From the NCBI RefSeq assembly GCF_037975245.1, contig NC_092569.1, positions 23,154,168 to 23,218,167 on the forward strand: a DNA stretch of 64,000 nucleotides, written 5' to 3'. How positions within the stretch are numbered: position 1 is the first letter of the stretch; each line of letters opens with the position of its first letter. Shown in pieces: positions 6,759 through 64,000 of the stretch. Position numbers and translations under genes: made by a program. The notes under the pieces are model-generated. The model saw nothing but the letters and a program-made list of their open reading frames with translations, did no database searches and had not been told where the DNA came from. Source of the stretch: Apostichopus japonicus (Eukaryota > Echinodermata > Holothuroidea > Aspidochirotida > Stichopodidae).

Positions 6759-7950
6759 AAGTAGCCACAAAGTATGACATTTCCTTCTCATTACATTTTA
6801 TTTTATGTATTTATGAAGATTTGTATGTTTGTTGGATACTAATGAATCTTATTGGATATTACATATTTCATTACTTATATGATTACTTTACGTGAAAACT
6901 TCAGACGCATATTGACCACCAATATGACATTCCAGAATACATTCTTTCTCCTTTCTTCAAGCGACAATTATTTTACTTCTTAAAGCAAGTAAAATATAAC
7001 ACGTGATAAACAATAACAAGGGTTGGTTCTTTATTTGTGGTCACCTCCATAACGCTTAAATCTAAAGGGCAGAACCGCATCAAAGCAAAAATTGCATAAA
7101 TAACAGCAGTCAATGTAAGCGATAGTAATATACTATTAACTCCTACTGAAGACATATCTATTAGTTCTTACAACTGACCAGTTCTGAATTGGCTGGAGCG
7201 CTTCAGTAACAAACGCTGTTATAACTCACGAGTAAAATCACATGAAAACATATGCAGGCAGTTAACGTAAATTAGAGAAGCATGTTGCTGCCACAACATA
7301 TTTGAAATGATGAAAAACATTGCGAAATTACGTAAAACACTTTCTCGAAATAACATAAAGATGTTTGTTTCGTGGCAGCATTGCGCTTCATAAATTAAAC
7401 GCTATTATAATTTTAAAATTAACATAAACCAATACTGAGGGCACAACTTTTTATTGAATAACATTGATAAACACGTAATAAAACATCATTTAGCCATCAT
7501 AGGTGCGCTGTTTGCAGTGGGTTACTATGAAACACGGTTGCAAATCGTACTAGCTTAACAAGATTTTGACAGCACAGAGCGTTTTGCTTTATTTTAATAT
7601 TCAATATAAGAAGTATTTTCTTTTTTCTCTGCTTCATATGTTGTTTGAAATCAATGTAATCTGTCTTTTCTTTTTAGTTTCATACGTTTAAAATGATAAA
7701 GAAGAAGAAGACAATATATCATAGCACACGGGGAATCAGCAAGACAATGAAATATCTCAGGAATTTATTGGTCACTAATTGTGTGTATCATAGCTCCGAA
7801 CCTTTGAGGTACGTTTGAGTCGTATAGGAAGAATGTCGGTTTATTGGTTTAACACGATTGTCACACCTCACTTACGTCCTGAACTTACAGTTTTCCTTAA
7901 CTGCTTGTCTAAACTCTTGAACCACAGCAGACGATACACACATAACACAG
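6759..7950. other. Flank downstream of psi1, duplicated at 61.3-62.0 kb
   Basis: Homologous to about 61331-62025. A short open frame near 7694 resembles one at 61752 (both contain YHSTRGIS) but differs downstream, so it is probably just duplicated non-coding DNA. Confidence 0.5.
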
Positions 7951-7953
7951 TTA

Positions 7954-8195
7954 CTACTGTAAATCTTAAAGTTTTGTGACTAGGTAAAAACTGGATCGTG
8001 CTTTAAATCGGTAGCATGTGCTATTATGATTACAGTAAGAACTGAGGAAATGTGTAATATAAACAAATCCAGTTGTTGGCATTTGTTAGGATTACACATA
8101 TCCTCAGTTATTACTGTAAATCTACTAGCACATATTACCGATTATCAGCACAATCCAGTACTTACTGTGGTACAAAACGTTAAGATTTACAGTAG
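7954..8195. repeat. Fold-back palindrome, about 240 bp
   Basis: The left arm begins CTACTGTAAATCTTA and the right arm ends TAAGATTTACAGTAG. Arms of about 105 nt pair with few mismatches around a loop near 8070. This is an inverted-repeat miniature element or stable hairpin. The duplicated copy is at 62026-62270. Confidence 0.75.
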
Positions 8196-8199
8196 TTAA

Positions 8200-10110
8200 T
8201 GTAATCTCTGTGTGAATCAGCTGACCACAGCCTCCAATTTAATTCTGAAAAGGTTAAAGCGAAATTGAATACAAGACCGCGAACTTATTGTTTGTCTTAT
8301 AACGCAAGGAATTTTAAGCTGAATTAATTTCTGCGATCAAATATAAATCAGTTTCTTGTCGAAATTTAGACAACCAAAGTCGACATGTTCTCACTAAAAT
8401 TCGTCCTTAAATAACATATCACACTTGAATTCACCTTTGCGTTCGTCCTAAATTACCATAATTGAAATAAGGACCGACTATTTTCTTTGATTAGTCTTGT
8501 TTTTCTCGCTACGAGATCCCATGTAACATGATATGGGAAGCAGTAATTTCCATTTTTGGTTTACAGTCAACCAATCCGTGCATGTGGTAATGTTTTGTAA
8601 CGAATAAAGACAGGGGCGTCAGTGCCAATTGAAAAGTGTTGAGGCGGTACATAAACGATTGTACACGGATAAAACTGGGAGCCGAAGTCTTCCAATTTGT
8701 TTGGTTACTGCATTTTTATTAAAAGTCAGACCTGGCAAGTAATTAGACATATCTTAGGAAAGACTTATCTATTTAATATCCGTGTGAAACTTAGGGCCTG
8801 TATCATGATTGATAAAATCGAATCCTGAACCCAAACGGAAACCTTTTTCAAATTTTGCACACAAATAAAATAATCTTGTTTCACAAATGTCTACAATATG
8901 AACACATAAGGTATCAAAAGCACAGTAAAAAAAAAATCACCATTGAGTATCTAGGCACATTCACTTTATCGGAAATACAAAATAAAGATACTTTTGGACC
9001 CAAAACAGGGTAGAATCTATAGGGGTACTTGAGTGATATCAAGAACAATTATGTCTCGTCTAAATGTTACATATTGCTGCTTTTGATGTGGATATATACA
9101 AGGGCCTTTTACGAAATTGTTAGTGGGTGGGCCACCTCCCGAACTGGACCATTATGACACTATCGAAACGTAGCGCCAGCATCGGTTGGAGCGTAGCTCA
9201 GCAAGTTTTTAAAAAAAAAAAAAGTTTTTTAAGAAAAATGCCTTCTCCAGATTGCCGAAAATGGTACATTGCGAGCCCTGTAAGTTGCTGTAAGAACATT
9301 TTAATTAGGAAGTGGAACTCTCAAGGGCAAATCTGCCCCCCCCCCCCCTACGACCCTGTACTTGACGTTAGTAAACTTAACACAAATTAAGCATTTTGTG
9401 AACATATGTACATAACTAGTAAACTAAAACTTGAGGTATGTTGATTAACATATTTATTTATATCAACAACATTACTAGCAGCTTAGGACCCAGTTTTAGC
9501 ACCATATTTAGAATGCTTCAAAAATCCTATGAAATATATAGTTATTTCAAGAACACTTAAAACTAGCATGAGTGGCATTGCTAACCAAACTGAACGCACA
9601 ATATAATTTACAGGTAGTGTTATATTACTTATACGAAATAATGAAGCATACTTCAAAATGTGAAAAATAATATACTGGAAAGGAGATTAGTGAATGCTGT
9701 TGGCTTTCATTATCTGCTGGCTCATTATATAGCCACAGAGTTATATGGGCGCTGTTCCTCATTAAATTTACGCTTCAAGTGAAATCTGTTATTCTTACGT
9801 ATCCCATGATTTAAAAACTTCAGCCAAGACAAGGTAAACAGAGTCAACCCTCTTTTGCACCCAAGTATTTAAGACATGGTAGACTGTATCCAATAGAAAG
9901 GACACCACAACCGGAGCAGATTAGAATTTGTCCTATTGACGTCAATTAAAGATCATTTCGATTCATAGAGAATACATAGATTCGTCGATAACATGATTGG
10001 TTCCTAAATAGTTTAATAAAGACACCTTAGTATTCAATACAAGGACAATTCATTAGCGTGAATATGATTTTTTTTATGATTTTATCTTTCAATTTGTTAG
10101 TATCACGTCC
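8200..10110. other. Upstream flank of gene B
   Basis: The part up to about 9780 matches 62275-64000 at the right edge of the window. It holds a C13 tract at 9336-9348. No coding exon, RNA gene or complete mobile element was recognised. Confidence 0.55.
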
Positions 10111-10480: not shown

Positions 10481-13400
10481 GTAAGTGTATAAAATTTGAT
10501 ATATTCTTTGACGTTTCCATCATGTTTCATTGAAAATTTTAGATACTTATTCTCATCAAGAGAGTGCAGTTTATTTTAATCTACTGACAGACTGTTAATA
10601 CTTTTTAGTTGCTAGTTGTCACTTCTTATTATACTGAAATAAGCAATAAATATAGAGAAAGTTAAAAAAAAATGACTATTCAAGTATAATATTATCAAAT
10701 GGGTTTAACAATAATTCACACTGAATTAAAATAAAACTTTTTTTAAATAGATGCTTCGTAAGAAAAGAAATTATCATATGGTGTGCAAATATCTGACATC
10801 TTCATAACCACAAAAACTCACTAATCATTATTCCCTTAGTACAAAGCATATCAATACACATTGACAGCTAATGAAATTAAATAAAATCTAATTAAGTTTA
10901 TTTAAATATTGCTAACAACTGGCGTATGCTGTAACAGTTGGAATATATATGAAATTTTTTAATTTAGTGCAACGTTCAACTTGACTGAGCACAGAAAATA
11001 ATTTTATTTGTAAAGATTGTGAACTTTTAAATCCAGAGGTTGTATTCCTTCTCCAGATTTAGTTTCCATATTTAAATGCACAACTAATCTGAACTCAATT
11101 TATTTCCATTGTCAAAGTAAACAAAAAGCGATTTTGTTTTTCGGTTGAATCACAAAATTGAGTTACAAAAATAACAACAAAAACTTGAACTGAGCGTTTT
11201 CAAAACTTTCACTTATTCAAAAAATTTAATTTTAATTTTATTTTAATACGAATGAAATTACAAATTAAATGTAATACTGAAATTAGCAATAAATTTAGAG
11301 ACAGTTTAAATACTAACTATTCAAGTATGATATTATCAAAAGGGTTTAACAATAATTTACACTGAATTAAAAAAAATAGCAATAAATTTAGAAGAAGTTT
11401 AAAAAATAACTATTTAGGTATAATATTCTCAAAGGGTTTTAATAATTATTCACACTGAATTAAAATAGATCTGTTTTTTTTTAAATAGATGCTTCGTAAG
11501 TGAAAAAATTATTATATGGTGTACAAATATCTGACATATTCATAACCATAAAACTCACAACTCAGTATTTCCCTAGTACAAAGCATATCAATACACATTG
11601 AAATGTACAGATTTGGAACTTTTAAATCCAGAGGTTGTATTCCTTCTCCAGGTTTAGTATCTATATTTAATGCACAACTAATCTGAACTCAATTTATTTC
11701 CATTGTCAAAGTAAACGGAAAGCGATTTTGTTTTCATAACTTTCACTTATTCATAACTTTAAATTATTATTTTATTTTATTTTAATGCGAATGAAATTAA
11801 AAATTCACAATTGAGTTGTTTACTCCCAGTTTTAACGATCGCTTAGATTACAACCGGGCTTTTGAAGTTTCAATGTGATTTAATTTTTTTTTTTCAAAAG
11901 ATTGAAACAACTTATTTTTGAAGAAAAAAATGTTAGGTAAAGTTTTGGTACATATGAGCAAATAATATAAATGTGGAGACTGACTAAAGATATATGAATT
12001 TTTCAAACAAAAGTTTTGAAAGAACCATTGTTTTGTTCCATAGTTAATTGCACGGTGGAAAAAAAAATATGTTTAATGTTACTCCACACGCGGTAGGGTA
12101 AAATCAATTGCAAATATTCATATTGTCTTCAAAGTATTATTTAATAAAGTTGAATCGAACTTTTCGGAAATAGTTATTTGTTAAAGCTTTTCATCGTTCT
12201 GCCCAGATCCATGTCAATCTATCCACTTTTACCGCTTACACGCTATCTAAAACATATTTGTTGTAAATTTCTTGTTAGTCAGTAGAGAGCTGTGACATCT
12301 GCTTCATAAACAGCGTCATCAATTTAGAATACCTTAAAATAAACCTTTTTTCCCCTTACATAAATGATTTTGTCATTTCGCATGGTATCGGTCGACTAAA
12401 CAATTTTTATTTTCAAACCTTGAATTTATGGAAAAAGTACCTGCAAATTTGATATCCAAATAAACCATTTACTTCTCAAGGATTGTTTCATTGATTGGCC
12501 ATAAAATGTCCAGGTAAAGTTTTTTTGATAAATCATCTGTGCATCATAGTAATATTATAGTACATCATAGTGATAAACGAAAATTACATTACAATTGGTA
12601 AACCGGGACTTTAAAATAAAATTAGGGACGACGTATGGAAAATACATCACCAAAAATTGCTATACATATATTGCTTGATTTTCAAAAGAAAAGATCTTCA
12701 CTTTTGTAGTGAAACGTTTCGTAGATTGTGTTTACATACCAAATATTTTCCTAAATAACATAACTGTATCTATATTTAATAGTTAGTACTGGGGTCAGTC
12801 TGTCATTCTCTTTTAAATAACACAATAATTTTGTCTTCTTGTGTCAAATAAGCTGCTGAATAAATTTACAATTAATAGTAACTTTTAATTTAATAAGTCT
12901 TAATGTGCAATTTCACCTAGAGAAATGTGAAATGGTTACTTTCTTTTACAACTTTACCTTTGTATTTTGTGCTGATTGTTGTAACTAACTTTTTAAACAC
13001 TATTTAAAAGATAGACTGTCCTTTAGGAGAAACAGAAGGATGCAGCGAATATTATATAAATTCATTAAAATGTGTTACCAGACAACTCAGTAATAAATAA
13101 AGAATCGGAGGAGTCTTCAATCATAAAGTGAACGATTAACGTGTTTAAATATACTGTGTACCATTGTAGATCGAACCGAAATCAACACCATTCTACATAA
13201 TGATAGTTGACGATCAAAAATATACAATATTTATAGTAGTTACATTCTGGTGAGTTAAAGCAAACTATGTCAGTTAATGTTAAATTATTAGAATAATCAC
13301 TTTTTCACTAAATTTGTTGATGGTGCTAACTAGCACCAAAATATATATGACTTATTTTAGGATTAACTGAAAGCAAAAGGAGAATGATTTATGGGACTGT

Positions 13401-20289: not shown

Positions 20290-21060
20290 CTTCCCGAGTT
20301 ATTTAACGTTCTTATTGCTTCACTTCTTTGGAAGGTGACGATGAGGGTGGAGTGGGGGTAGGGGTGGGGCGCAATTGATTTACAGTAAAGGAGTGATGGG
20401 GGTAAACCTGTTCGCCCTATCGACGATTCGAGCAGCCGTGTTTTGGATCCTTTGCAATCTCGATAGTTGGGATGTAGCTGCACCAAATAAAAGAGAATTG
20501 CCATAATCAAGCCTACTCGAGATGACAGCATGAATAAGTTTTTCAATAGCAGGCCTATCGAAATATTTCCTAAGTTGCCCCACCTGCCTAATATGAAACA
20601 TTGTCGACTTACATGTGTGGTTCACTTGCTGATCCATAGCAAGGTGAGTGTCCATATATACACCGAGATAGCGGACTACCGGAACAGAGTTTACGATATT
20701 GTCACCAATTCTTAAAGGAACCTTGTTTGATCCCAAAACATCACCTACTTTTTTCATCTCTTAACTTAAGATAGTTATTGGACATCTATAGCCTGACTTC
20801 CTGAATGCATGAATCTATCTTAGGTACAGCTAACTTGAGATGTTTAGATCAAAGACAACATTAAGTTGTGTGTCATCAGCATACACCATATAGGTAATAT
20901 CATAAGAACTAATAGTGTTTCATGGCGAAGAGGTATATAGAGAAAGAGAACAGGACCGAGAATTGATCCGTGAGGTACCACATGGTAGAGATCATGAGTA
21001 ATATACCTATTGCGTGACATTTGGGATAAATTGCGATCGACTTTCCAGTTAAGATCTAAA
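20290..21060 (-). mobile_element. Non-LTR retrotransposon relic (reverse transcriptase 3' part)
   Basis: On the minus strand, 20757-20380 encodes VVRYLGVYMDTHLAM, HIRQVGQLRKYFDRP and SSRLDYGNSLLFG, the post-catalytic part of an L2/CR1-type reverse transcriptase. Upstream of it (about 20868-20900) is the catalytic-box sequence YMVYADDTQL, and near 20960-20985 PHGSILGPVLF. Stops and frameshifts separate the pieces, so the element is dead and truncated. Confidence 0.8.
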
Positions 21061-29600: not shown

Positions 29601-32600
29601 CGAACAATATAAGTTCCGATAACTTTTCTCGACTACTTACTTAGAGTAAAAGATTCCGGGATACAGGATACATTGGAAAGACCTTACATCCAACTAAATA
29701 GGCTGATAATTTTTTGAATATTCGAAAATTCAACATTTGTTGATTTGATCTTCTTTTTCTTTATGTCAGACTCTTAATAATTAAGATCACAGCGACTGTA
29801 TGTTTGTATTTTAACACTGACAGTTTATTGCTGAACATTGATACTTAATATTTTGACGATACGTTTGTACCTAAGGGCTACCTCTGTGTATTATTGTTAT
29901 GTTAGCTGAGCGATACAATTAGTTATTGGTATACATTTCTTAACCGAGTATGTCATAATAGCTTTAAAAAGGCACCTCATTTTACTTAAATTTGATCACA
30001 ACTAACAGTTACATCAATCCCATACTCGTAGATACATAACTTTTACGTCATTAATTATTATTTATAACAACACAAATAAAGTGTTACTTAGAAAGAAAAA
30101 AAAAACAACCGTAAGATAACAAAAAAGGGAGGAAGTTTTAATGCCATAACTTGTTGTCAGCCAGCAGAAGATTTTGCATTTTTCATTAACTATCTTTTTA
30201 TCTATATTTTCCTCTGAAGTTTAATACACCATTTTCGATTGTAAAAATAAAAGTATTTCCTTCTCAAAATAAACTGATATTCCGGAGCAATGTCTGTGTC
30301 TGTTTTTGTTTTAATGAAAAATACAATAGTAACAATTCATTTAAAGGGAATGCCACTTATAAGTTTTTCTAAAAAATATATGTCGTAATTTATTTATTCT
30401 GTATCATTAGCTAACAAATCTATACTTGAATTTGCTATTTCTGGTTCGGTTGTCACTTTAAAAAAAAGGGGGTGTTGATATGTGTTTACAACATAACCTG
30501 AAATTACATGTGCATTGTGCAATATTTGTCACTTCATTGATTTCGTTATGTTTTACACAGCTGGTACGAACATTTTAAATCTTCCCACTCCCTAACACCT
30601 CAAAAATAGTAATATATTAAGTTTTCAATGTCAACATAAAAACCGTATAGGAAATTATCAGGATTTAATTCAGTAAGGTTATAATTATATTGTTTCCTGG
30701 TAGATATAAAGCTCTTACAGCATGTAAACGAAATAAGTGCATTTTCGCTTTAACTGTCTCGTCAATTTCTTTCTCTTCAGTGTAAAATTTCAAATGCAAA
30801 GATTGAGATTGATCTCTGTTTAGAAAGAACGACAATGCCTATATCAATTATTTTTTTGTCAACCAGGAAGGTTTAAGATTGGGGAATGCAAGTTAGAATT
30901 GTAGAAGGAAGAGTTATTGTTGTAAAAACGTAAACACAACAGAGTACAATCATTTTCATCTGCTAGTCTAGTCTACACATTTAATTTGCATCTTAATTCA
31001 TTATCATTCGAGCGTTGTCTAATGAGCCCTCGAAGGATTTATGAGTACTGATTATTTATAGTGGAGCTAGGCTGTTTATCTGAATTCTGTTTAGTGTTAA
31101 CCTATACCATGTCTCTTTTAACGGTACATTACAAATATCTGTATTAACACTTCTAATAGATTCAAACACTCCATGCCTTGGCGATACATGTTTTCATCCT
31201 CCCACTCCCGTTGTTTGAGAGAGGAATGTGTGAACTTGTTAGCTTAATGTTTGAAATGGACAACTCGAGTAAAGATAAAAGCGAGTCGAGTGATTTGTGT
31301 TCATCATCGGTCCCCCTCTCTGTCTTCTCATTTCAATTGGAATACATTTTTCTTTCTAATTTCAAATGAACCAATTTCAATAATTTCAATTTCAATAGCA
31401 ATATTGTTGCACCCATAGAGTAACTGACATCTTCGCTATCCCCAAATCTATCCAACCGGCAATCACTACTTGTTTTTTTAGTTGATGTATTCAAGTAGGC
31501 CCAGTAAGTATTTCCAGTAATACTTCTCAACGTAAATGGGACACACATTTCACATTTACTCCGTAATATAATGAAAACCTGTTTTCAAAAAAGTTTGAAA
31601 TCTTTTTTCAGAGCTTGATATCCAGAGGTCACTGATTCGAATCATGTTCTATCCAAAAGCTCTTTGCTCTATTCCATTGTTTAAAACAACAAAGTCACTT
31701 TCCTGTTATTCATTTACATATATATATATATCTTTTTTCTTCGGTTAGAGTGCCCAACAGACAAGTGATGGATCTACTAATGGAAAGATATTAGGTGAGT
31801 GATGCTTACCCCTCTTGATTCCAAATATGTAATTTAAATATAGTAAACCCTTGTTACATTATATTTATCATGTAAACAACACATGCATTAGGGCATGATT
31901 TTTTTTTTTTGGGGTGGGTGTGGTTCGTCTGAAGTATTAGTGGACGAGAATGGAAGAGGAGGTAAGGTGTTTTGGAGCATTCAAATAGAAATCTATCTTA
32001 ACAGTTAAACAAAACAGTCGATATAACTCATGTTAGATTTGTATGTATTGTGTAAAGTAGGCAGTGTTAGGTTGTGCTGTTAGAGTAACTTTTTTCTGCA
32101 AAACTACAAGTGTGAGACCTTTCGGATAGTTGAAATTAAGAACGTGTTGTATGCAATATATGTAAACCAATATCAAAAATGCAAAGTAAAAAAAATAATG
32201 TGGACAATTTTTTATTTATTTCTTTGCTTTTTAGGTTCATCATCATTTTTCTTCTATCAACAATCGACTTATCCGAGAGATTGCAGAGAAGTTCAGGAGC
32301 AATGTTCATCCCATAACTCTTCCGGTGTCTTCGAGATCAAACCAGATGGTTATCCGGAACCATTTGAGGTTTACTGTGATAACACTGACAGTTCCGGTGG
32401 ATGGACGGTATGTCTTTGGTTTCTTGCTCTAGTATTAACAATTGTCAGACTGAAACAATCATGTTCACAGCAGCTGGAAGAGTATTAACGATGTTACTAA
32501 CATAGGCGTTGGAGGCGGGGGGGGGGGGGGGCTGGGGTGGCTGCAGCCCCACAACCAATTTTTTTTGTGAAACTTCGGGCAATATGCTGAGAATTTTTCG

Positions 32601-35600
32601 GGCACCAACTGAAAGAAGAAAAAATTGCAGTGTGTTTTTCAATATTTTTGGTGAAAATTCGGGCTATATGCTGAGAATTTTTCGGGCACCTACTGAAAAA
32701 AGAATAATTTGCAATGTGTTTTTCATTTTTTGGGGGGTGAAAATTCGGGCAATATGCTGAGAATTTTTCGGGCACCTACTGAAAGAAGAATAATTTGCAA
32801 TGTGTTTTTCATTTTTTGGGGGGTGAAAATTCGGGCAATATGCTGAGAATTTTTCGGGCATCTACTGAAAAAAGAATAATTTGCAATGTGTTTTTCAATG
32901 GTTAAACTGATATTATTATTATCGTTATTATTGTAACGACTTTCCCAATAATTCTAACCAATATGGAAGGGTAATAACACGGAATATATAACCAAAATTT
33001 TTCGCGCTCTCCGCGCGCGTTCAACATCTTAATGTGCATGTCAAATAGGCTTTCATCGGTTATCGGCATGTGATGTAAAACCGATGAATGCCTATATGAT
33101 AGCACATTAACATGTTGAACGCGCGCGGAGCGAACAAAAATTTTGGTTATATATTTCGGGCAAGTCGTTACACCCCCCCCCCCCCCCCAATCAAATTAGG
33201 CTCCTACGCCTATGGTTACTAATATCGGTAACAATGTTATATATGTTTAAGTTACATTGTGCTATTCATTTATTTTTTAATTACCTAAAAACAGAGACGG
33301 CTGTGCTGGATGCCAAATATTACGCATTGAATGAAAGATCAGTAACTCTCAAATCATTTCGGTAACGACTCTGTCCATAGGTAATACAAAGGCGCACCGA
33401 CGGGTCCATCGATTTCAGGCGCGACTGGGACAGCTACAAGTCTGGCTTCGGGTTTCTCTCTCATGATTTCTGGCTCGGCAACGAGAAGTTGTCTTTCTTG
33501 ACCAACCAGAAGAAATACCAACTGGTGATTGAGATAACCACATCAAGCGGTTACTTAATTCGGGTTTCTTACGATCATTTCCGTATAAGTGACGCCTTTA
33601 GTCACTTCAAGCTGGTCAACCTCGGAAACTATTCTGGAGAGAATACTGGTGAGTTATCACGGAAAAAATTAGATATAAACGCAATATTATACCCATATTT
33701 CTTAAAAGGCTTTAATATATGTGAAGATTACTTGTTTCGTGACGTCGTCAAACATTTCATTAGATGACAGATATGCAGGGTCATCAGGGGAGATTCACTG
33801 ACAAACCTCTCTGGCCCATTTGGTACATCCATCTATGGTCAACCATCGCTTTGATAAAAGAATATATCTGAACTTTATTTATCAAACACTTCATTCACTT
33901 CATTAGGTAACATACATTCCTAGTAACATTAATGTAATAATAATTCAAATTAATTTTATCTTACAGATGCCATAACATTCACTCCATTGACACCAGCAAA
34001 AGATTGTCAGGAAATTTATGATGATGGTTCTAGAAACAACGGTATATACAGCATCAAACCAACCGGATGGACCGGGCCAGCATTTGAGGTCTACTGTAAC
34101 ATGACTGACGGAGGAGGATGGACGGTAAGTGTTATAGCCTACGATAAGCACGGAGATTACATTATGAACTATATAGTTCATTAGATCTTGCACTGGAATA
34201 CATTTTTCTCTAATGTAAGACTTACTTTAATCGTAACTATTCTTTTCACCGATCTATGTACAATGTCGGAATTTTTCGTTATTTTCTTTGTCATTGTTTT
34301 TAATGATATTCGTTTTTATATACAAGAACATTTTACATTGTACCACAGTCTATTGACATTTATGCATATTGCGAACCTCATCATTTGTATTCTTTACCTC
34401 CATGATTGAGGAAGTTTGGTTTATTCTACCTTTTAACTCATAACCGACATGTTGAAGGTCTTACGTTTCGAATTACGTTTAAAGGTAGTTCATTTTAAAA
34501 TAAGATGAAAATTTCAGATTTCACACTTGGGAAGCCACTAATATTATTCACGTTTGTGTTATTAACTACTTTTATCATTTTCAAATATTTAAGGTGTTCC
34601 AACGACGGGTCGATGGTAGTCAAGACTTCTACATTGGATGGGACAGCTACAAGCAAGGATTTGGAAATTTAAGCATTAATTTTTGGCTCGGAAATGATAA
34701 ACTTTATTACTTGACCAACCAAAAGAGATATGAAATCAGAATCGACTTAGTGAACAGATACGGAGCTCCATACTACGCCAAGTTTGACTTTTTTAGGACA
34801 AACGACTTAAGCGACAACTATCGGTTATCCGGTCTTGGGACCTACAGTGGAACATCAGGTTTGTAGCCTACACATCTCCTTCAATACTAAATATGGTATT
34901 TTAGCATAACTAGATAATGAGACACCACCAGGTTATCGTTTCATCGATAATACCACTTTCAAGAAATATATTTTAACTTCAGTTAAGTTGAGTACATAAT
35001 GATATCACCTTAAGAATAAAGAAGTAGATAACAATGTAAGGAGGCCAAGCAGATGAAAAATCGATTATATTTGTAATTAGTAGCCTGAGAATGGAAATTG
35101 CATCAAAATAGGAAACTACATACAGTTGTCTGTTATAGTTACCAGTTTCACATTCCTGTCAACATTGTCCAATACCTTCAAAAGTGCACTTTAATGGAAA
35201 CTAATGATAAGCATCGTTGAAACATCATTTAGAATCAGTGATGTACTGATAAATAAAGGCAGGAAGAGAATGCTGTCTGTATCACGTATTAGGAAACAGT
35301 ATAAGTCAGTCCAAAGATGAAATTGCAGAAAGCTAAACAATAGACAAATTTAAACTTACAATTCATAGTATTCAAGTTATCTCCGTTTGTCTTTAAAATT
35401 AGTAAATAACTGACTGACATCCTCAGAACATTTAAGACTGATCTACATATCCTTACATTTGTTAATTTCTCTGAGACGTATTCTGGTAGTTGGAGCAGGT
35501 AATCCATTGCGCGACACTATTAGTAAATCATGCCACATGCAGTAGTGACACTTTCCAGAACGCTAACAACTGAGTATTTGTCTTACGTGCAACAATTCCG

Positions 35601-43900: not shown

Positions 43901-46900
43901 CAACATGAAAAACTTAAAAGAACTTATCAGGATTTAATTTATTATGGTATAATTATATTGTTTCCTGGTTGATATAAAACTCTTACAGCATGTAAATGAA
44001 ATAAGTGCATTTTCGCTTTAACTGTCTTGTAATTTTTTTTCTCTTTAGTGTAAAATTTCGAATGCAAAGATTGAGATTATTCTCTGCTTAGAAAGAACGA
44101 CAATGCCTATATCAATTATTTTTTTGTCAACCAGGAAGGTTTAATATTGGGGAATGCAAGTTAGAATTGTAGAAGAAAGAGTTATCGTTGTAAAAACGTA
44201 AACACAACTGAGTACAATCATTTTCATCTGCTAGTCTACACATGTAATTTGCATTTTGATTCATTATTATTCGAGCGTTGTCAAATGAGCCGTCGAAGGA
44301 TTTGTGAGTAATGATTATTTGTAGTGGGATTAGGATGTTTATTTGAATTCTGTTTAGTGTTTACCTATACCATGTTTCTTGTAAAGGTATATTACCAATA
44401 TCTTTTAACACCTCTAAATAGATTCAAACACTCCATGCCTTGGCGATACATTTTTTCTTCCTCCCACTCCCGTTGTGTGAGAGAGAAACATGTGAGCTTG
44501 TTGGCGAAAATATTTTGGAATGGACATCTTGAGAATAAACAAAAGCGATGCGAGTGATATGTGTCCATCACCCGCCCCCCTCTCGTTCCTCTTATTTCAA
44601 TTGGAATACATTTTCTTTCTAATTTTAAATGAACCAATTTCAATGAAAAGATTGTTGCACCCATATAGTAACCGACATCTTTGCGACCCCAAATCTATTT
44701 AACAGGCACTCACTACTTGTTTTGTTAATCGATTTATTCAAGTACACAACATATCTGCATCGGTAATGCCATCTCCGATGCTGTTGTTCTCGACTACTCT
44801 GTTCCACAAAGCTCGGTTTTGGGTCCTCAACTCTTCACTATCCATACTTATCCAGTTCGAGATATTATCCTCAAGTATAATCTCCAGTATCATGTTTATG
44901 CTGATGACACTCAGATCTACTTCTCATTCAAATCCTGTCAACACGATGCTGACTCATCACTCAGAATTATGGAAAATTGTATACAAGAAATTCGGTGTTG
45001 GATGCAGCAAAACTTCCTTAAACTGAATGATGATAAAACTGAATTTGTGCTTTTCGGATCTCGGCAACTACTATCAAAGATCAGTCTCCCTTTTATACGA
45101 ATTGGGGACTCACAAATTGTTCCTGTTTCTCAAGCTAGAAGTCTAGGAGTGGTCTTTGATTCTTTCATGACGATGAAGCCACATATCTCTAATGTTATCC
45201 GTTCATCCTCATTACACATTCGGAACATTGGTAGGATTCGAAAGTACTTAAATCGTGTTGCTGCTGAACAAATCGTTCATTCATTTATCACTTCTCGTCT
45301 GGATAATGGAAATGCCTTACTCTTTGGTTTACCACAATCTCAGCTCTCCCGACTTCAACGTCTTCAAAATACTGCAGCTAGAGTTGTAACTTTGTCAAGA
45401 AAATCGTCTTATATAACACCTATACTACGAGATCTACACTGGCTACCTATTTCTTATAGGATTATCTACAAAATTCTACTCATTGTTTTTAAATCACTTA
45501 ATAACATGGCTCCTATATATTTTTCAGAATTACTCCAATTGTACTCTCCATCACGGAATCTTCGTTCAAGCAGCACGCTTAACCTCCAGGAACACAGGTC
45601 TAAACATTTGTGGGGTGACAGGTCTTCAGGGTTGCCGCCCCACGCCTTTGGAACACTTTACCATATGAACTGAAGTCATGCACCAGTATTGCAGCTTTCA
45701 AGAAACACCTTAAAACTCACCTTATGCGTGAAGCTTTCCAGTAGTTTTATTTGACTTTTTTCCATGTTGCGCCTTGAGCACCCTGTAGGGTGGATATGTG
45801 CGCATTATAAATCTCTGTTATTATTATTATTATTACGCCTAGTAAGTATTGCCATTAATAATTCTCAACGTAAATGGGACACATACTTCACATTGACTCG
45901 GAATATAATACGAACCTGTTTTTAAAAAGTTTGAAATCTTTTTCAGAGCTTGATATCCAGAGGTCACTGATTTGAATCATGTTGTATCCATAAACTTTGT
46001 TTCTCTATTCAATTGTTTAAAACAACAAAGTCACTCTCCTGTTATTCATTTACATATATGAATTTTATTAATGGAAGCTGATTTCAGGTATTTTTGGGCA
46101 TTCAAATTCACAATAGTCGTCAGAAATCATGTCAGATAAGTCTATTGAAGTGAATAGTACGTAGTGATCCACATTTTTTCTTAAAGTCACTTTTTGTTGG
46201 AAGAGCAACGGGTGTGAGGTCTTTCGAATAGTGTAAATTAAGAACGCTTTGTATGCTATATATGTAACCAAAGAAAAAAAACACAAAGGTAACACATGAG
46301 GACAACTATTTTTTTTTATTCCATCATATCCTAGGTCAGTCATCATTTTTCTTCTATCAACAATCGACTTATCCGAGAGATTGCAAAGAAGTCCAGGAGC
46401 AATGTTCATCCCATAACTCTTCCGGTGTCTCCATAATCAAACCAGATGGTTATCCGGAACCATTTGAGGTTTACTGTGATAACACCGACAGTTCCGGTGG
46501 ATGGACGGTATGTCTCTGGTTTCTCGCTCTTCTCTCGACAATTTTCAGACTGAAGCACAGCAGCTGAAAGAGTAGTAAAGATGTTAGTAATACAAGTGAC
46601 CAAGTTGCATGTGGTAAACAAAAATACGTTCTGTTTTTATTGAGTAAAGAAAGAAACGACTGTTATGGATGCCAACATTTAAAACACCGAATGAAAGATC
46701 AGTGACTAACAAACCATTTCGGTAACGACTCTGTCCATAGGTAATACAAAGGCGCATAGACGGGTCCATCGATTTCCGGCGCGACTGGGACAGCTACAAG
46801 TCTGGCTTCGGGTTTCTCTCTCATGAATTCTGGCTCGGCAACGAGAAGTTGTCTTTGTTGACCAACCAGAAGAAATATCAACTGGTGATTGAGATAACCA

Positions 46901-52415: not shown

Positions 52416-53479
52416 GGTGAGAGTGACAACTACCGCCTGTTGGGAATTGGGACATACAGTAGAGCAGTAGGTGGGTAACATACTAAATATAAATGATTTA
52501 GTGGCTCCTGCGTTGTAAAAGATTGTAAGTTATTCACCAAATTCATGGTTTGAAACTAACTTTACAATTTTTTTTTTTTTTTTATTATTTGATATAGCTA
52601 CGGGAAAGGTGGGGTCACTATGATGATTTGGATTACAGAAATGTTATTATCATGAAATGGGTTGGAAATGTTTTCATATATTAACAGTAAACAATGGTTC
52701 ATAATAGCATGGCAAGGAAATACATGTGTAGTGAAAACTGCTTTATTATAGAATTAATTTTTAGAAAAATAATTAATTAATTAGAAATATAATTAGAATT
52801 TAAAGAAACCAGTACATACAACTTGTTTTATTAAAGGCACACTCTCAGCTAGGAAATTGCTAAAATAAAAAATCTTGTCTCAACGTATTCCCCGATTAAA
52901 AAATAAAAACAATGCTGCCCTCTTCTCACAGCGGCAACATATTCATTTCTTTAATATGGCATTCTCATCCTTAGCTATAAACAGCATACGCAAATGGGTA
53001 CCGTTACCGCGAAGGTATCAGATTTCCGAGATTCTAATCTGCCTCTCAGTGTTGCGTAACCTATAGGCACACTGTGTAATTGTACTGTGTGCTATTCGAG
53101 TTACGCAATTTTTCGATTTGCTATATGGAACAGTGCATATTGTACTGCTGGGAAAACGCTATACCAGCTCGTAGCAGCAGATAGTTGTTATGGAAAGTCA
53201 TATGGGCCCGTATGATCTCGTGCTGCCGATTTTTGTTGGAGAAATTGCTGAAGAAATAAAATGCGAATAGTTTCGTCGTGTTATTCTCTATAAACATGTG
53301 ACTGAATGTGTGCTGCTTATGTACTGTTATTTGACGAAACGACTTGCTTCTGGCTTAACGTTCTTCAATACTTGAGTTCAAAATAAAATAAAACAGTGAG
53401 CAAACAGCTTATCCACTAGAGAGCCTGTGTAGAAAAAACACGCACATAATACAGACAGGTTAATGAGCATGGTGAACAC

Positions 53480-53730
53480 AAAGAGATAGATGTAAGGGGA
53501 TTAGTAGACAAGGGATGGAGAGAAGAATGAAAGATAAAAACCAACAGGGGAAGAGGATAGGTAGGAGATAAACAGTGGAGGGACAAAGAGAGGATTAAGG
53601 GAAGGGGTAGGGAATAAACTGGAGAAGGACAACGGCAGAAAAGTGTGGAGAAAAAAAGGGGTGGAAAAAGCTATGAGAAGAGGAGTAATGGGGGAGGGGG
53701 GCAAGGGGAGAAGGAGGGGAATGAAGAAAA
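53480..53730. repeat. Purine-rich low-complexity tract
   Basis: GGGGAGAAGGAGGGGAATGA and similar G/A runs dominate the + strand. The minus-strand open frame (Pro/Ser/Phe-rich) is a by-product. Confidence 0.7.
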
Positions 53731-54985
53731 GTTAGTCATGTCCTTCCTGAATGTTGAGCCCATGAGGTTGAATGGTGCGAAGGCGTAGCATCCACAACCT
53801 CTCTCTGCTGATTTGCACTAGCTCAGGACGGCTACCTAAGGATTCAATCCCCTGGGCCTATAGAGACATGTCGTTAATGGTATGGTTGCATAGCTCCCAA
53901 CTCTTGAGAAGGCAAATGCTGGTCCATGCCACGAATTGCCGTCCTGGGGGAGGGGTATATGGGGGGTGTCTCCCTCCCCTTTTTATTTTTTTTTGAATCC
54001 TGGTGATGCCTACATGTAAACTGGTGGCACCTAGAAAGGCTTTTGTCACCCACAATTTTTTGAGAAATATGCATTTTTTTGTGTGTAACATCAATAAATT
54101 GAGTAGTAGGTGATAATTCATTCTTGCCCGTGGCATGAAAATGTTCGCTGCTCGCCCCAATGAAATGAAATATAGCCTAATTTGAGGTTCAAATGATGAT
54201 GTAAAGGAGGTTTTATACTCTATTATGCTTAATGCTAAAGAAATGATGGCTGCTAAGTCCAAATTTGATGCAATTTTTTGTATGTTTACTTGTCAATTAC
54301 AATGCAGGTTTTTGGGATGCTTGAGCGGGTCAGGGGCTTTGGGTGTTAGAATGCGGGTCCAACCCGCGAATTGTGGGTCAGTTGGGAGCTCTGTGGTTGG
54401 GAAGGTTAAAGTGTTCTCCAAAAAAACCTAAAAGATGAATGACCTTCGGCACAGGGGTAAACTGGACTCCTCCAGCTGCCTTTACTACATTTTACTGCAT
54501 TACTACAAACATATAATGGCTTCCACACCAACTCTTGACCAGAGTATGCTGTATTGGCCCCAAATAAACCAGATATTCAAATATGGTTACCTTTGGTCAA
54601 AGTTTTGAAACTGGTTTTATTACCACCTTCCAGGAAATTTACCTCACGGGGACATTCAGGCATCTTATGCTTTCAATTAAAATGCCTTCGAACAATTTGG
54701 AAAGTAAATACCTCTAGGAACATATTAAATATTCTAGCAATTATAGCATGCTAAATTGGGGACAATACTACATAGCCCACCTTGAAAATATCCTGTAACC
54801 TACTCTGGATAAACACTATCTAATATGGAAGAAATGCTTTGGTTAAAGTATGAATATGGTCACTTGAACATTAAGAAATGCAAGTGAGATAGTGGTAAGT
54901 TTTCCCTGCTCATGGTTATTGTATATAGTTGAACTCAATGTAAGAACTGTACAGATGCAATCAATGTGTTACAAATAAAAACATG

Positions 54986-55128
54986 TTACAATACTGACTT
55001 ACCTAACTTTAGAATAAGCAATACAAACAATAGTAGGGCAGTGTTCAAAATACGGAATGCAAGGACATATACCCAAATAAGGCTAGGAGACGCCATGCCT
55101 CCATTGTGGAACTTCTCCATCATACAGT
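54986..55128 (-). other. Exon-like minus-strand segment inside the TTAA element
   Basis: From an ATG at about 55118, 38 codons run to a consensus GTAAGT donor at about 55002. The peptide starts MEKFHNGGMASPSLIWVY and is followed by a hydrophobic helix (ILNTALLLFVLLILKL). It looks like a signal-anchor first exon. I do not recognise the gene, and no matching second exon was identified. Confidence 0.25.
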
Positions 55129-55721
55129 AAGTATAGCAGCTTTACATGCAAAATAACTTTTGCCAAAACTTCAAAAGACCCTATAATGTCCCCTGCATTT
55201 CAAACATCTCCATCTGCCACTATCTCCATCTGCCACTGGGCCGGACTGGGGTTATCATGAGAGCACTGAATGAACTGTTTTATCACTGCTAGCTGCAAGT
55301 TAGAGTACCTCTTCAACACTCTATGACATCACAAAATATGTTATGTTAAATTGATCTCACACAATACAAAATAAAGACAAGTTATTCTGTACCAACAATA
55401 AATAACCCAAGATCAATGTCACATTAGAACTACTGGTATGACTGAACAAACTACAGTAATTAAAAAGATCAGATATTGCTATCATGGAAAGCCAAATAGT
55501 GTACAATCAAGTATGTAGTGAAACCAATATTTCAATCATTTACTTATTTAATATGACACAGTTGTAACTTTGATGACATCAATTATGTAGTTTACTTACA
55601 CTATGAATGAACATGCAAATCAATGCTAAATACTACAGAAAGGAGAAGGATACATAACGTACTGAATGCAACAATCAATGTTTGACACCATGGAGAAGAT
55701 AAATTCCTATGATACATTGCA

Positions 55722-55943
55722 CTAGCTTAGTAACTTCATTTTACTGAGACACCATGTTTGTTGTTGTCTGTTATGGTACAGTTTGTCCAATTGTCTTGAA
55801 GCCTTGTGATATCTACATTCTGGATACTTGTTACTCCCATTGTCCACTCTTGTGTCCTTGATGTATGGTATTAAAATAAGCTGAGAAACTGCTTTGACAT
55901 CAGCTATTTCAAAATTGTCCGTATCCATGTTAACAACGTTCAC
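55722..55943 (-). other. Unrecognised minus-strand open frame inside the TTAA element
   Basis: 73 codons, including YPECRYHKASRQLDKLYHNR. It could be part of a captured transcript or chance. No domain recognised. Confidence 0.15.
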
Positions 55944-58340
55944 TATGCAAATCCATAGCTTTCACTGGAGAACAAGAAATATGACAATCATCTTACGTAA
56001 AGTAGAGAAGCACACATTTATTAATGAAACAATCCAACACAAATACTTCCAGTTCCAACCCTTATATCTGCTTGCAAAACATCCATCATGCCATAACGCT
56101 ATGCTGTGCTGTACTGTTCCTCTAAAGGATGTTCTGTACATCTGTAATGTGAAATGAAAATGGAAAAAAGACATATTTATGGCATTGTGTGAGGACAGAA
56201 GTGTCACAAAGATATACCTGTTCAAATGATTTTCCAAGATATGATTTATTTGATTTTAATTGCAAAAGAGACATTCAGGCTCATAGCCAAGGTAACTGGG
56301 TTGGAGCCAGCATAAATGTTATGTTCGTTTATTCACTGAGATTGTAACTTGCACTCATTGTAATAAAAACATAAAGAGAAAAGAATAAAAGTGCAATTTT
56401 TGAACACAAACTGCTTCAGACAGGTAGGTACCACATTCTACAAGATTGGTAAATGTCTTTATTTTTCAGAGATAAGGAAAAATACTACAGGTACTGTTAT
56501 CATTCACTTGTGGGGTTTGAACATTTTTGGGTCCCACACATTTACAGACCTCCAGTGGCTGTATTAGCACCATATTTAGCACTACATGTCTATGTCATTA
56601 ATATAACATAATACAATAAATGAATAAATGTGTCCAATGTCCTAAATCTGGTTAGTCATATACAGTCCTACAGTAGTAGACTGCAGACCTAGTTAAAATG
56701 TAGACTTATTTCGAGTTTCTTAATTGGGCGCACACCTTCAACTGAAAAAGACAAATAATACCGGGATGTGCAAAGTTAATAATATATCAGAATGCATACT
56801 GTACGCATAGCAGGGAAGTGCTCATGAATATTTGAGTGCCAGGCAGATTGGGCGGTAGTGTGATCCACACCCTGGGAGAGGGATTTCATGGGTGGGGTAC
56901 CCCCCCCCCAAATGGACAAATTTTGCACATGAAGTATGCTTAGGTGGTGCTATATTCCTATTCTGTGCCATATATTCTCCCAGATTTTGGTTATGGTAAA
57001 ACTTATTAAATTATCATCAAAATGTTCTGGGCGAAAAAGGTTAAATACTGTTTGTGCGGGGCGGCATTCAGAACTGCTGGGCGTACCATAGCTGCCCAGT
57101 GTGAGCAAATTCCTGACATAGTGAATTATATAACTTCCAACATAAATTACTGAATACCACATTTTGCCCTTCACTAAATAGTCAAAAATTCAAATCAATT
57201 TTGCAAACACAGGACAGTAATAACACTACTAGTTAAAACAGAACTTTGCTATTGGCAGCATAAATTCATCACATCTGCTTTATGATTTACAGTATGTATA
57301 GTGTCAACTCTGCAAGTATTCAAGAATGGTCCATTTACTAATATAGTGCAAACCTAAACTAGTGATGTGCAACAATTTCTATTATATTTCTTATTTCTAT
57401 GTTAGTAGTATACACCTGCAGTATTATAACTCATCTACTAATACCTTACATACACTAAATGTCATAACGTTTGATGTTACAATGGCAGTGTCCCAGTAGG
57501 CTTGCTCATACACTAATATGTCACTTAATTTCATCATGTTCAGGGATGCATAATTGCTTTCAAATATATAGCTAGGCTTTGCTTATTTCCAAGACTAAAA
57601 ATTACAGAATATTCTACAGGTGTGCCCTAAACAATGAAGTGTTTAAAAGATATATACTACAGAAACATGATATGGTATATAATGGGTGACCATTCTAGTT
57701 CTCTCACAAATCAGTAGTATCATTTTCATTTTGTATAATTTTTAGAACTGCATGATCAGATTATGTGTAGAGCTATGAAGCCTATGATGTTGTTATATTT
57801 TGGCAAATGTCTTTAATTTCAATATCATGATGAAATTATCAATTATTGTAAGACGGACTCAACGACCCCCGGAATGGTGCGTCATGTCTGATGAGGCGCA
57901 TATTTGGTGCGTTATTACAACTACAATATGTGCTTCAGTGTCCGTCAATGTGCCATGCATGGTGTATCCTTTAAATTAAATGTGATAAATTTTGTCGAAC
58001 ATAAAATGGTGGCATTCACAATTATTGGTGACATTGATTTGTTTATGTTGTCCTTGATTTTATGATTAAACAACGATGATAGCAAACTATCATGTTATGA
58101 ATGCATAAACATGTGAACAATATCTACTATCTTTCACTAATTCAACAAAGGAGCCTGTAGAGTTAGTGTAGCTTCTTTCTGAGAAGGCTTTTGAGTTTTG
58201 AATTAATTTGGAAGACTTAGTAATATCAGTTATCACTTTACACTACAGTTACAGGAAAAGCCGCTACCGTTTTTTAAGTTACTATACCAAGTTGGGAGTA
58301 TTATAGGCAAACTCTAATTTGGGTGAAAGAGTTTAAATTA

Positions 58341-58612
58341 CAAAGTGGCTATTCTTACAACTAGTCGTAACAATAATTCCCTTTTACGCATGCACAGTTG
58401 CTTTAACGTGGCTATTTTTACGACTAGGAGTACTCTTTTTACGACTAGGAGTAACAATATTTTACGGTTAAGGGATGGGTTAGGGTTAGGGTTAGGTTTA
58501 CCCCTACTACATACGCAGTTGCTTTATTTACTTCACTGCGCATGAATTCGCCGATGTTGTAAGAATAGTTTATAAATAATTGTTACGACTAGTCATAAGA
58601 ATAGCCACGGCC
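58341..58612. mobile_element. 272-bp inverted-repeat MITE with telomere-like core
   Basis: Arms GTGGCTATTCTTACAACTAG (58345) and, inverted, GTGGCTATTCTTATGACTAG (ending 58608) extend for about 34 bp. TTTAAATTA is duplicated at 58332-58340 and 58613-58621. The centre carries ACGACTAGGAGTA repeats and GGGTTAGGGTTAGGGTTAGG at about 58477-58496. A 9-bp duplication fits a Mutator-like element. It is nested in the TTAA element. Confidence 0.75.
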
Positions 58613-59774
58613 TTTAAATTAATTCGTACATTTTTTCTTTGCAAGTGGAGAATCATCCACAGCTAAAGTGGCTATGCGGTTTGACAAACAAGTGAAGCAA
58701 AGTAAATATCCTAGCCGATGCATATTAGACTTAAAAAAGTAAAGAACCCAATGCCTTAGTAACTTAATTCATCTTGGAGTTGCTCAGCAGATTCGAGGTT
58801 ATTTCACCACTTAAGAACCCATTCTCAGACAAAAAAAAAAGACAAAACTGAAATGGCTACACAAATGAGTAGTCTATAACTGAGAATGACCATGCATGCA
58901 AATGTGCAGTAAATTTTCAAGTTGTCAGACTAATTTATTTGTTGCTAGGAACTCTATAATTGTGCTGGTAAAGTAGAGTAGGAAATGAAAACAGTTACTT
59001 TATTGCGTATAGGCCCGTCCCTCACGTATCTCATTGCATACTAGACTTACAGTTACAAAATAAATTTGCCCATATCAAAAATGCTCTTGACAGGAATAAC
59101 CATCAAATTGAGGCAGGCCCTCCATGGTGCATAATTTTATAAATCTGGGCCTGGAGCTAGGCTACAGTAGTCCTACTTTTGCTATTGCTCCGCTCATAAG
59201 AAGTTGCATTTCTTTCGAGTTTAATTTTCTTGTGGGGAGATCTCCCTACCAAATCCATATTACACTAATGTAGGCTAAGTCCTATTCATATTTGCAAAGC
59301 TACCGAATCATAAACCAAACAAATGATACCGCACACTTCCATACTGATCATGCTTAGTAGGCGAATATAAGTAGAAAAGCATAAATAACACTTCATGAAA
59401 TGTTCGGCCTAGGCTAGGCTACAGTTTGTACAGCAGCCTGCACTGCAGTAGCATGGACACTGCGGAGTTCGGACACTTAAGCCTTAAAACACCCCAAAAC
59501 TATATCTCATGGTATAAATCACCTGAAACTATACTTGATATATGTTGGGTCATTTTGGAGAGAAAACAACTGTAGCTTCGTAGTTTTTTGTGCAATTGGC
59601 TCTTGCTGTAGGTTGTCTCATCGTGAAATCGCGTATTTCTTAGGGGTGTCCGAACTTCACAGTGTTCCAAACTTCGCAAAACTGACTATACTACTACTGT
59701 ACTAGCCTATGTCTCTCGGTGTATTAGTTGCCTTAGTTTGTAGTACTCGTAGTAGTAGGCCTAGCTAGCATGAT

Positions 59775-60130
59775 CTATTGAACAATATAACAATGAAGCC
59801 TACGGCAGACCAAACACTTCGGCCGGAAAACAGTATGCAGTAGCCTAAATAGTAAATATATAACGTTAGTCGTTAGCATAATTTGCTGCCTACCTTCTCG
59901 TATGATCTGCCATGCCAGTAAATGCTCCGCGAAGGTAGCATTGGTCATTTTGTAGATCCCCGATCTCTGTTCCAGTAGATCGCTTTTGGAGACCCAGTCC
60001 ACGTACGTAGCACCAGCTCAAGTACACTTTTCATTTCATGTCCGTTTTGTCGCTCACTGCTTTTGGCATTGGGACCCACAATAGAGCAACCTGTGCCTTT
60101 CACGTAAACAGCGCGGCGACGCGGCCACAA
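59775..60130 (-). other. CpG-rich, promoter-proximal-like segment on minus strand
   Basis: 60060-60130 is GC-rich for this window. On the minus strand a frame with MTNATFAEHLLAWQIIRE ends at a GTAGGC donor near 59893, like a first coding exon. The longer overlapping frame starting MWPRRRAVYVKG is also open. No family was recognised; it might be a captured 5' gene end. Confidence 0.2.
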
Positions 60131-60320
60131 TATACACGTTACGTGTGTTATGCTACCACTGCATGAAACTGTGCTATATATTACGTATATTTACATACAG
60201 GGTACACTGTACACTGGCAGTATATTACAAATACCGTGTCACGTGATTAACGGTGAACCATCGAAACATATGAAATTGGCCCGCCCTCTAAAAATTTCCT
60301 AGCTGAGAGTGTGCTTTTAA

Positions 60321-61085: not shown

Positions 61086-62025
61086 AAACGGAGATGGTTA
61101 TTTCTTGCGTTATTACATAAATCACGAGTTCAATACCAAACAAAGGGACAGCGATGTTTATAGTAATAATTTTGTTTTTTTGTTTTCAAGGTGGTACGAT
61201 AACTGTTACTATTCTAACCACTACCACGTCAGTTTAGAAAGTGATTCTAGCATCTATTGTTAATATATCCCAGGATCGAATTATAAATCAAATATACTGA
61301 AATGAAGAATCGTCAAGTTAAACCTGAGTAAGGGACAGCATTACCGAAAAGTTTGTAGAAGTAGTCACAAAGTATGAAATTTCAAATCATTACATTTCCA
61401 TTTTTGTATTTATAAAGTTCTGTGTTTGTTGGATACTAATGAATATCATTGGCTATTACATCTTCCACTTATTATATAATTACTTTACGTGTAAACTTCA
61501 AAAGCATATTAAACACGAAATAGAACATCATTTAGCCCTCATAGGTGCGCTGTTTTAAATATACTGCAGTGGTTTACTATGAAACACGATTAAAAAACCG
61601 TAGCTTACTACCTTAACAAGATTACGATAGCACAGAGAATTTGCTGTATTATAATATTTAAAATTAAGAAGTATTTTCTCTTTTTCTATGCTTCATATCT
61701 TGTTTGAATTCAATGTCATCGTGTCTTTTTTTTTAGTTGCATACGTTTTAAATGATAAAGAAGAGAGCAATGTATCATAGCACACGGGGAATCAGCAGGA
61801 CAATGAAATATTCCAGGAATGTATTGTTCACTAATTGTGTGTATCACAACTCCGAAGAAATCACAGCTACGTTTGATAAAAAAGAGTCGTATAGGAATAA
61901 CTTCGGTTTATTGATTAAACACAATTGTCACACCTCACTTATGTCCTGAACTGACATTTTTCCTTAACTGCTTGTCTAAACTCTTGTACCACAGCACACG
62001 ATACACACATAACACAGTTACAGTT

Positions 62026-62270
62026 ACTACTGTAAATCTTAAAGTTTTGTGACTAGGTAAAAACTGGATCGTGCTATAAACCGGTAGCATGTGTTATTGT
62101 GTTTACAGTAAGAACTGAGGAAATGTGTAATATAAACAAATCCAGTTGTTGGAATTTGTTGGGAAAACACATATCTTTAGTTCTTACTGTAAATCTACTA
62201 GCACATGTTACCGATTTATCAGCACGATCCAGTGTTCACTGTGGTACAAAACTTTGAGATTTACAGTAGT
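62026..62270. repeat. Second copy of the fold-back palindrome
   Basis: Arms ACTACTGTAAATCTT and GATTTACAGTAGT pair as in 7954-8195. It was carried along by the segmental duplication. Confidence 0.75.
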
Positions 62271-62274
62271 TGCT

Positions 62275-64000
62275 GTAACCTCAGTGTGAATCAGCTGACC
62301 ACACCCTCCAATTCCTAAAGTTTATTTCTGAAAAGGTAAAAGAGAAATTTAATACAAGACCGTGAACTTCTAGCTTGTCTTATACAGCAAGGAAGCTGAA
62401 TTAATTTCGGCGATCAAATATAACTCAGTTTCTTGTCGAAATTTAGACAACCATAGTCGACATATCCTCACTGAAATTCGCTCTTAATTCACAGATATCA
62501 CTTGAAATCACCGTTGCGTATGTTTTAAATTACCATTATTGAAATAATGACAGACTATTTTCTCTGATAAGTCTTGTTTTTTTCTCGCTACGAGATCCGA
62601 TGTCACATAATATGGGAAGCAATCAGTTTCAATTTTGCTTTAAAGTCAATCAATCCGTTCATGCGGTAATGTTTTGTAACAAGTAAAGACATGAGCGTGA
62701 ATGCCAATTGAAAAGTGAGGGGGCGGTTCATAAAAGACTGAACACGGATAAAACTGAAGGAGTCTGCTCGTAGCGAGCGCCTCGGGGCAAAATCTTTTTT
62801 TCGGGTGGGGTCAAAGGGCCGCCTAAGGGCCCTGACGGGGTCCAGGGTAAAAGTCCAGGCAAGAGCCGAAGTCTTCCAGTTTGTTTCTGTTTGGTTACTG
62901 CATTTTTACCAAAAGTCAGACCTGGCAAGTGATTAGACATAACTTAGGAAAGACTTATCTATTTAATATCCGGGTGAAACTTAGGGCCTTTATCATGATT
63001 GATAAAATCGAATCCTGAACCCAAACGGAAACATTCTCATTTTTTTGTTTCTCAAATACAATAATCTTGTTATACAGATGTCTACAATTTGGTACCTGAA
63101 GTACAATAAAAAAAAATCACCATTGAGTATCTGGCCACATTCACTTTATCGGAAACATACAATAAAAATACTTCAGTTCCCAAGCCAGGGTAGAATCTCT
63201 AGGGGTAGTTGAGTGATATCTAGAACAATTATGTATCGTCTAAATGATGTGGGTATATACTAGGGCCTTTTACGAAATTGTTAGTCAATGGGCCACCTCC
63301 CAAACTGGACCATTATGACACTATCGAAACGTAGCGCCCGCATCGGTTGGAGCGTAGCTCAGCAAGAAATTATTTTGTGAAAAATGCCCGCCCAGATTGC
63401 CGGAAATGGTACATTGCGAGCCTTGTAAGTTGCATATGAACATTCTAAAATGTGAGATCTCATGTTGTAGAAAATTTTACCCTCCACAAAAAAAAATTAT
63501 ATGAGAAGAAATCTTTGCGGGAGAAAATCACTTCGTAAGGGAGAAATAGGTCTTAACGTTACTTCATAAGCTATAATATTTGTTTCACATACCAAAGAGG
63601 GACCTACTAGAGGGTGTGGGGGGGGGGGGGGGCAAGTGAGCTGAGTGGATCGGCCGTGTAACTGACTGAGCCTCAATATTTTTAGTTAAATCAACGGGTC
63701 ACTGATTAAGGGGCTAACAATATAACTGATAAGCCTTTAGATACACAAAGACGTAATAAGTATATAGTCCAGGCGTTCACATAATCATAGGCCTACTTCC
63801 ATCTAGGAAGTTGAACTCTCACGGGCGCAACTGCCTCCCCCCCCCCCCTCCATGCAGGTTAAAAATAATATGCTGGAAAGGAGATTAGCGAATGCTGTTG
63901 GCTTTCGTGATCTGCTGGCTCATTATATAGCCTCAGAGTTATATGGGCGCTGTTCCTCATTTAATTTAGGCTACAAATAAAATCATTTATTCTTAAGTAT
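62275..64000. repeat. Duplicate of gene B upstream flank
   Basis: Matches 8200-9780 to the right edge, with a GC-rich insertion of about 105 bp at 62757-62862, a G15 tract at 63618-63632 and a C tract near 63840. No gene seen. Confidence 0.7.

Follow-up and report, generated by a model that had tools for sequence, protein, structure and literature searches.

A large TTAA-flanked insertion without a recognised transposase in Apostichopus japonicus and its probable Kolobok affinity

Within a 64,000-nucleotide stretch of the genome of Apostichopus japonicus (contig NC_092569.1, positions 23,154,168 to 23,218,167 of the forward strand), hereafter the window, lies a 7.5-kb segment bounded by inverted ends and TTAA. 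This locus raises the question of which kind of mobile element could have left so long an insertion, and whether its interior consists of host DNA captured between the ends, as a sequence-only reading of the window had proposed. Our analysis suggests that the segment is a large cut-and-paste DNA transposon with TTAA specificity, either non-autonomous or fully decayed, and that it most likely belongs to Kolobok; we regard this reading as the probable one. The locus provides one cleanly bounded TTAA insertion together with an unoccupied paralogous site. Apart from this, it has the appearance of an ordinary relic of a transposon. The features discussed below are collected in Table 1.

Table 1. 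Coordinates of the element, its target sites and its internal features within the window
Feature	Positions	Strand	Remarks
Element	52835-60316		7,482 bp, TTAA-flanked, without recognised transposase
Left target site duplication	52831-52834		TTAA
Right target site duplication	60317-60320		TTAA
Left terminal inverted repeat	52835-52858	+	24 bp, AGG...
Right terminal inverted repeat	60293-60316	-	24 bp, AAG... on minus strand
TTAA of the unoccupied paralogous site	5816-5819		Single TTAA; aligned context 5504-6554
41-aa open frame	53732-53857	-	
Nested MITE-like element	58341-58612		About 272 bp; outer boundaries by eye
GC-rich stretch	59883-60190	-	Near right end; ATG and donor-like site at 59894

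Termini and the unoccupied site

The left end of the element, AGGCACACTCTCAGCTAGGAAATT, and the reverse complement of its right end, AAGCACACTCTCAGCTAGGAAATT, are identical at 23 of 24 bases, and the element ends are AG (left) and AA (right). When the flanking TTAA is included, the two arms comprise 32 nt and are 97% complementary (blastn self-match, E 3e-7). TTAA occurs 648 times in the whole window, and among the pairs 80-12,000 bp apart, that of the element is the only one in which at least 15 of 16 terminal bases match inversely. To evaluate whether the ends could be a matter of chance, a refutation that the sequence-only reading had itself offered, we shuffled the sequence: the 22-base core of the ends, with up to 3 mismatches allowed, occurs twice in the 64-kb window and not once in 100 shuffles. 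The ends therefore stand, and with them the earlier description of 24-bp inverted repeats with TTAA on both sides.

The insertion itself is read from a diverged paralog in the same window. In a blastn self-comparison of the window, the flanks of the element match the paralog at 5504-5730 (79%) and 5816-6554 (83%), where one TTAA and no element is found. Host flanks fused at one TTAA align with the paralog across the junction. To the right of the junction TTAA, 31 bases are identical to the paralog; the left side is more diverged, with mismatches and small gaps near the TTAA. The sequence-only reading had claimed an insertion and an empty site at about 5817, and both claims are confirmed by the TTAA on either side of the element, the single TTAA in the paralog and the alignment of the flanks across the junction.

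Coding capacity of the interior

Open frames of at least 40 aa that overlap the element number 76, the longest being 144 aa, a length that was attained in 15 of 200 Markov-resampled controls. A joint Pfam scan of 67 of these 76 frames returned 15 families at E values up to 1, none of them a transposase. The best match in the element is TPR_TTI1_N with an E value of 0.0039 and 16.6 bits against a cut-off of 27; such an E value is expected about 0.26 times over 67 queries. When 50 of those 67 frames were scanned singly, 9 families were listed and none reached the curated cut-off. The Kolobok transposase is a DDE enzyme with THAP (C2CH) and H2CH motifs; THAP had no Pfam match in the 67 of 76 frames, and the element contains no uninterrupted C2CH pattern. 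Within this scope, the missing transposase frame of the sequence-only reading is upheld, and the lack is expected if the copy is non-autonomous. A transposase split into short exons by introns, or one outside the Pfam models, could escape detection.

That reading had also seen exon-like segments on the minus strand, for which we applied a codon score, a test of three-base periodicity and a splice-site scan. The codon score, trained on 840 codons from the fibrinogen, EGF and TIL-type exons of the window, recovers untrained paralogs of its training exons; it is weak for transposon genes, since the reverse transcriptase (RT) frame at 44729-45673 is not among its 30 best. Four stretches of the element score above 12, compared with a control mean of 0.81, which speaks mildly against our reading. 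The top score, 23.1, falls at 53621-53785 (+), purine-rich and of low complexity, while control maxima have a 95th percentile of 17.1 and a highest value of 26.3. Two of the four stretches form one purine-rich, low-complexity region of the plus strand. The remaining two overlap as different frames of a single GC-rich stretch on the minus strand, and the better of them stays below the control 95th percentile.

This GC-rich stretch, in a part of the element where GC reaches 0.463 (59800-60099), scores 16.3, 13.3 and 12.0 in three frames. It has no PDB match and no Pfam match above cut-off, and may be what remains of a promoter or a first exon. In three-base periodicity, 3 of 120 element windows surpass the 95th percentile derived from the 64-kb window itself. 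This test is weak as well: 3 of 6 host exon windows lie clearly above 2.9 (the control 95th percentile), and the RT frame gives 0.8-3.4. The splice-site scan yielded 10 candidate internal exon frames on the minus strand at 8 intervals, none of them convincing. An apparent terminal exon at 55722-55961 (-) was rejected, its frame opening with TGA directly after the acceptor-like site at 55964; its PDB matches begin at E 0.12 and look unrelated. The 41-aa open frame, which may resemble the C-terminal end of a retroelement protein of the GIY-YIG / Penelope type, has no Pfam match, and its best PDB match (E 1.6) is unrelated. The exon-like segments thus find no clear support as coding sequence in the three tests, of which the codon score and the periodicity test are weak.

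The nested MITE that had been noticed earlier is recovered as a MITE-like element with inverted arms at 58345-58378 and 58575-58608. The arms are 91% complementary, the core is TTAGGG-like, and TTTAAATTA flanks the element at 58332-58340 and 58613-58621. A further stretch inside the large element, 59457-59665, carries 20-bp inverted arms that are 90% complementary and 169 bp apart, and is possibly a second small nested element.

Superfamily and competing explanations

Sola3 elements duplicate TTAA on insertion. In PMC9587614, piggyBac and Kolobok are described with TTAA duplications, and the terminal rule of Kolobok is 5'-RR...YY-3'. Both the 4-bp TTAA duplication and this end rule are found in the element (AG... 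/ AA...); by our own estimate, about 1 element in 16 would carry RR at both ends by chance. The ends of piggyBac, according to PMC2872659, bear CC[C/T]T. The element resembles piggyBac in its TTAA duplication and short inverted ends and differs in that a transposase was not found. Because the CC[C/T]T motif is missing at both of its ends, piggyBac, which the sequence-only reading had named as a candidate owner, is disfavoured.

A close likeness exists with the Kolobok elements of Xenopus (XKol). In PMC6004289, 10 full-length copies measure 6,763-13,907 bp; an AG start and a left TTAA target site are present in 10 of 10, and a right TTAA in 9 of 10. The element shares with them TTAA, RR termini, AG at one end, short inverted repeats and length. 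It differs from them in that neither a transposase frame of about 2.3-2.5 kb, the CDS span of those copies, nor a THAP match was found. Since 7.5 kb falls within this range of 6.8-13.9 kb, it is not an odd size, and the large size that had been taken as a sign of a carrier loses that meaning. The same paper describes the T2-MITEs of Xenopus as presumed non-autonomous Kolobok relatives with the terminal motif AGGRR. The element is similar to these in TTAA, the left AGG start and the lack of recognised coding capacity, but is 7.5 kb rather than short and has AGGCA / AAGCA instead of AGGRR. KolobokP, whose termini according to PMC9587614 bear long direct repeats (about 450 or 660 bp), agrees in TTAA and RR ends; it was rejected, however, as the terminal 1-kb stretches of the element have nothing but the inverted 22-mer in common (E 2.6e-7), all other matches having E values of at least 0.34.

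Judged from the target site duplication and the end anatomy, which do not amount to proof, membership in Kolobok is probable. TTAA targeting by itself is not decisive, and the transposase by which an element is classified was not found, so that some weight is due to a non-autonomous element that likewise targets TTAA but belongs elsewhere, be it to Sola3, to piggyBac in an aberrant form or to a superfamily not yet described. We nevertheless consider such an origin rather unlikely, because both ends start with RR as in Kolobok and the piggyBac motif CC[C/T]T is missing. Far less credible is a misassembly or a chance repeat pair. Assembly errors are possible in an array of diverged duplicates such as this window, but the boundaries are exact TTAA, the flanks align with the paralog across the junction, and the shuffles returned nothing; we give this explanation hardly any credence.

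A further idea is that the element is a carrier transposon, with pieces of host genes captured between its ends by transduplication; captured host DNA would in our judgement be unusual for a TTAA element. This idea draws on the long interior without transposase, on the right-end region with its donor-like site and its three overlapping frames of positive codon score, on the excess of high-scoring stretches over the control and on weak Pfam matches such as TPR_TTI1_N. However, the E value of that match would be expected about 0.26 times from the number of queries, the high-scoring stretches reduce to one purine-rich region and one GC-rich stretch (16.3 against 17.1), and periodicity is raised in very few places, albeit in a test that misses some real exons. 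In addition, blastn of the interior against the rest of the window gave no matching stretch at E 1e-4. The carrier with captured host DNA, as proposed by the sequence-only reading, is therefore unsupported and, in our view, improbable: no good sign of host genes and no interior match within the window was obtained. We hold it equally doubtful that the element represents an invertebrate family of long Kolobok-type carriers that are still mobile in trans and in which captured DNA, from the host or from retroelements, has taken the place of the interior.

If the element is a non-autonomous Kolobok transposon, as we prefer, a transposase from an autonomous Kolobok element elsewhere in the genome would bind the matching 24-bp ends. 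Supplied in trans, it would excise the element and insert it at a TTAA, as is generally known for TTAA cut-and-paste elements, and filling-in of a 4-base stagger would presumably duplicate the TTAA. The insertion may postdate the duplication from which both paralogous blocks arose; alternatively, the element may have been precisely excised from the other copy. Both fit. The interior would then be filler without transposase, into which the nested MITE-like element, if not more, was inserted later.

Further copies and the surrounding window

The 24-bp end sequence offers a probe for this family in the host genome. An exact 21-mer of the end had no occurrence in prokaryotic and viral contig collections, where absence says little. 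A degenerate 19-mer was absent from viral contigs and matched 4 stretches in bacterial records (one with two matches), which we take as chance. Neither a sister copy nor an autonomous partner was seen in the window or in these prokaryotic and viral collections. A 17-mer of the end did not occur in the literature text searched.

The window (1-64000) consists of duplicated blocks that have diverged and lie in an array, the large ones about 70-89% identical. The blocks carry exons with fibrinogen-C and TIL domains, along with an EGF_3 match slightly below the Pfam cut-off. For RNA genes, the window gave no Rfam match at gathering thresholds and no tRNA. The RT frame at 44729-45673 (+) is a remnant that matches RVT_1 at E 3.7e-11; by eye, 20380-20760 (-) appears to be part of a similar non-LTR protein, with no Pfam match at E 0.001. 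One other TTAA pair, at 11403-12180, reaches 13 of 16 matching inverted terminal bases and may be either a weak TTAA element or chance. A self-complementary stretch at 32980-33158 (84%) adjoins an 86-bp tandem array at 32567-32897. Finally, a long palindromic (self-complementary) repeat of about 77% is kept in both paralogous blocks, at 7936-8213 and 62017-62279.
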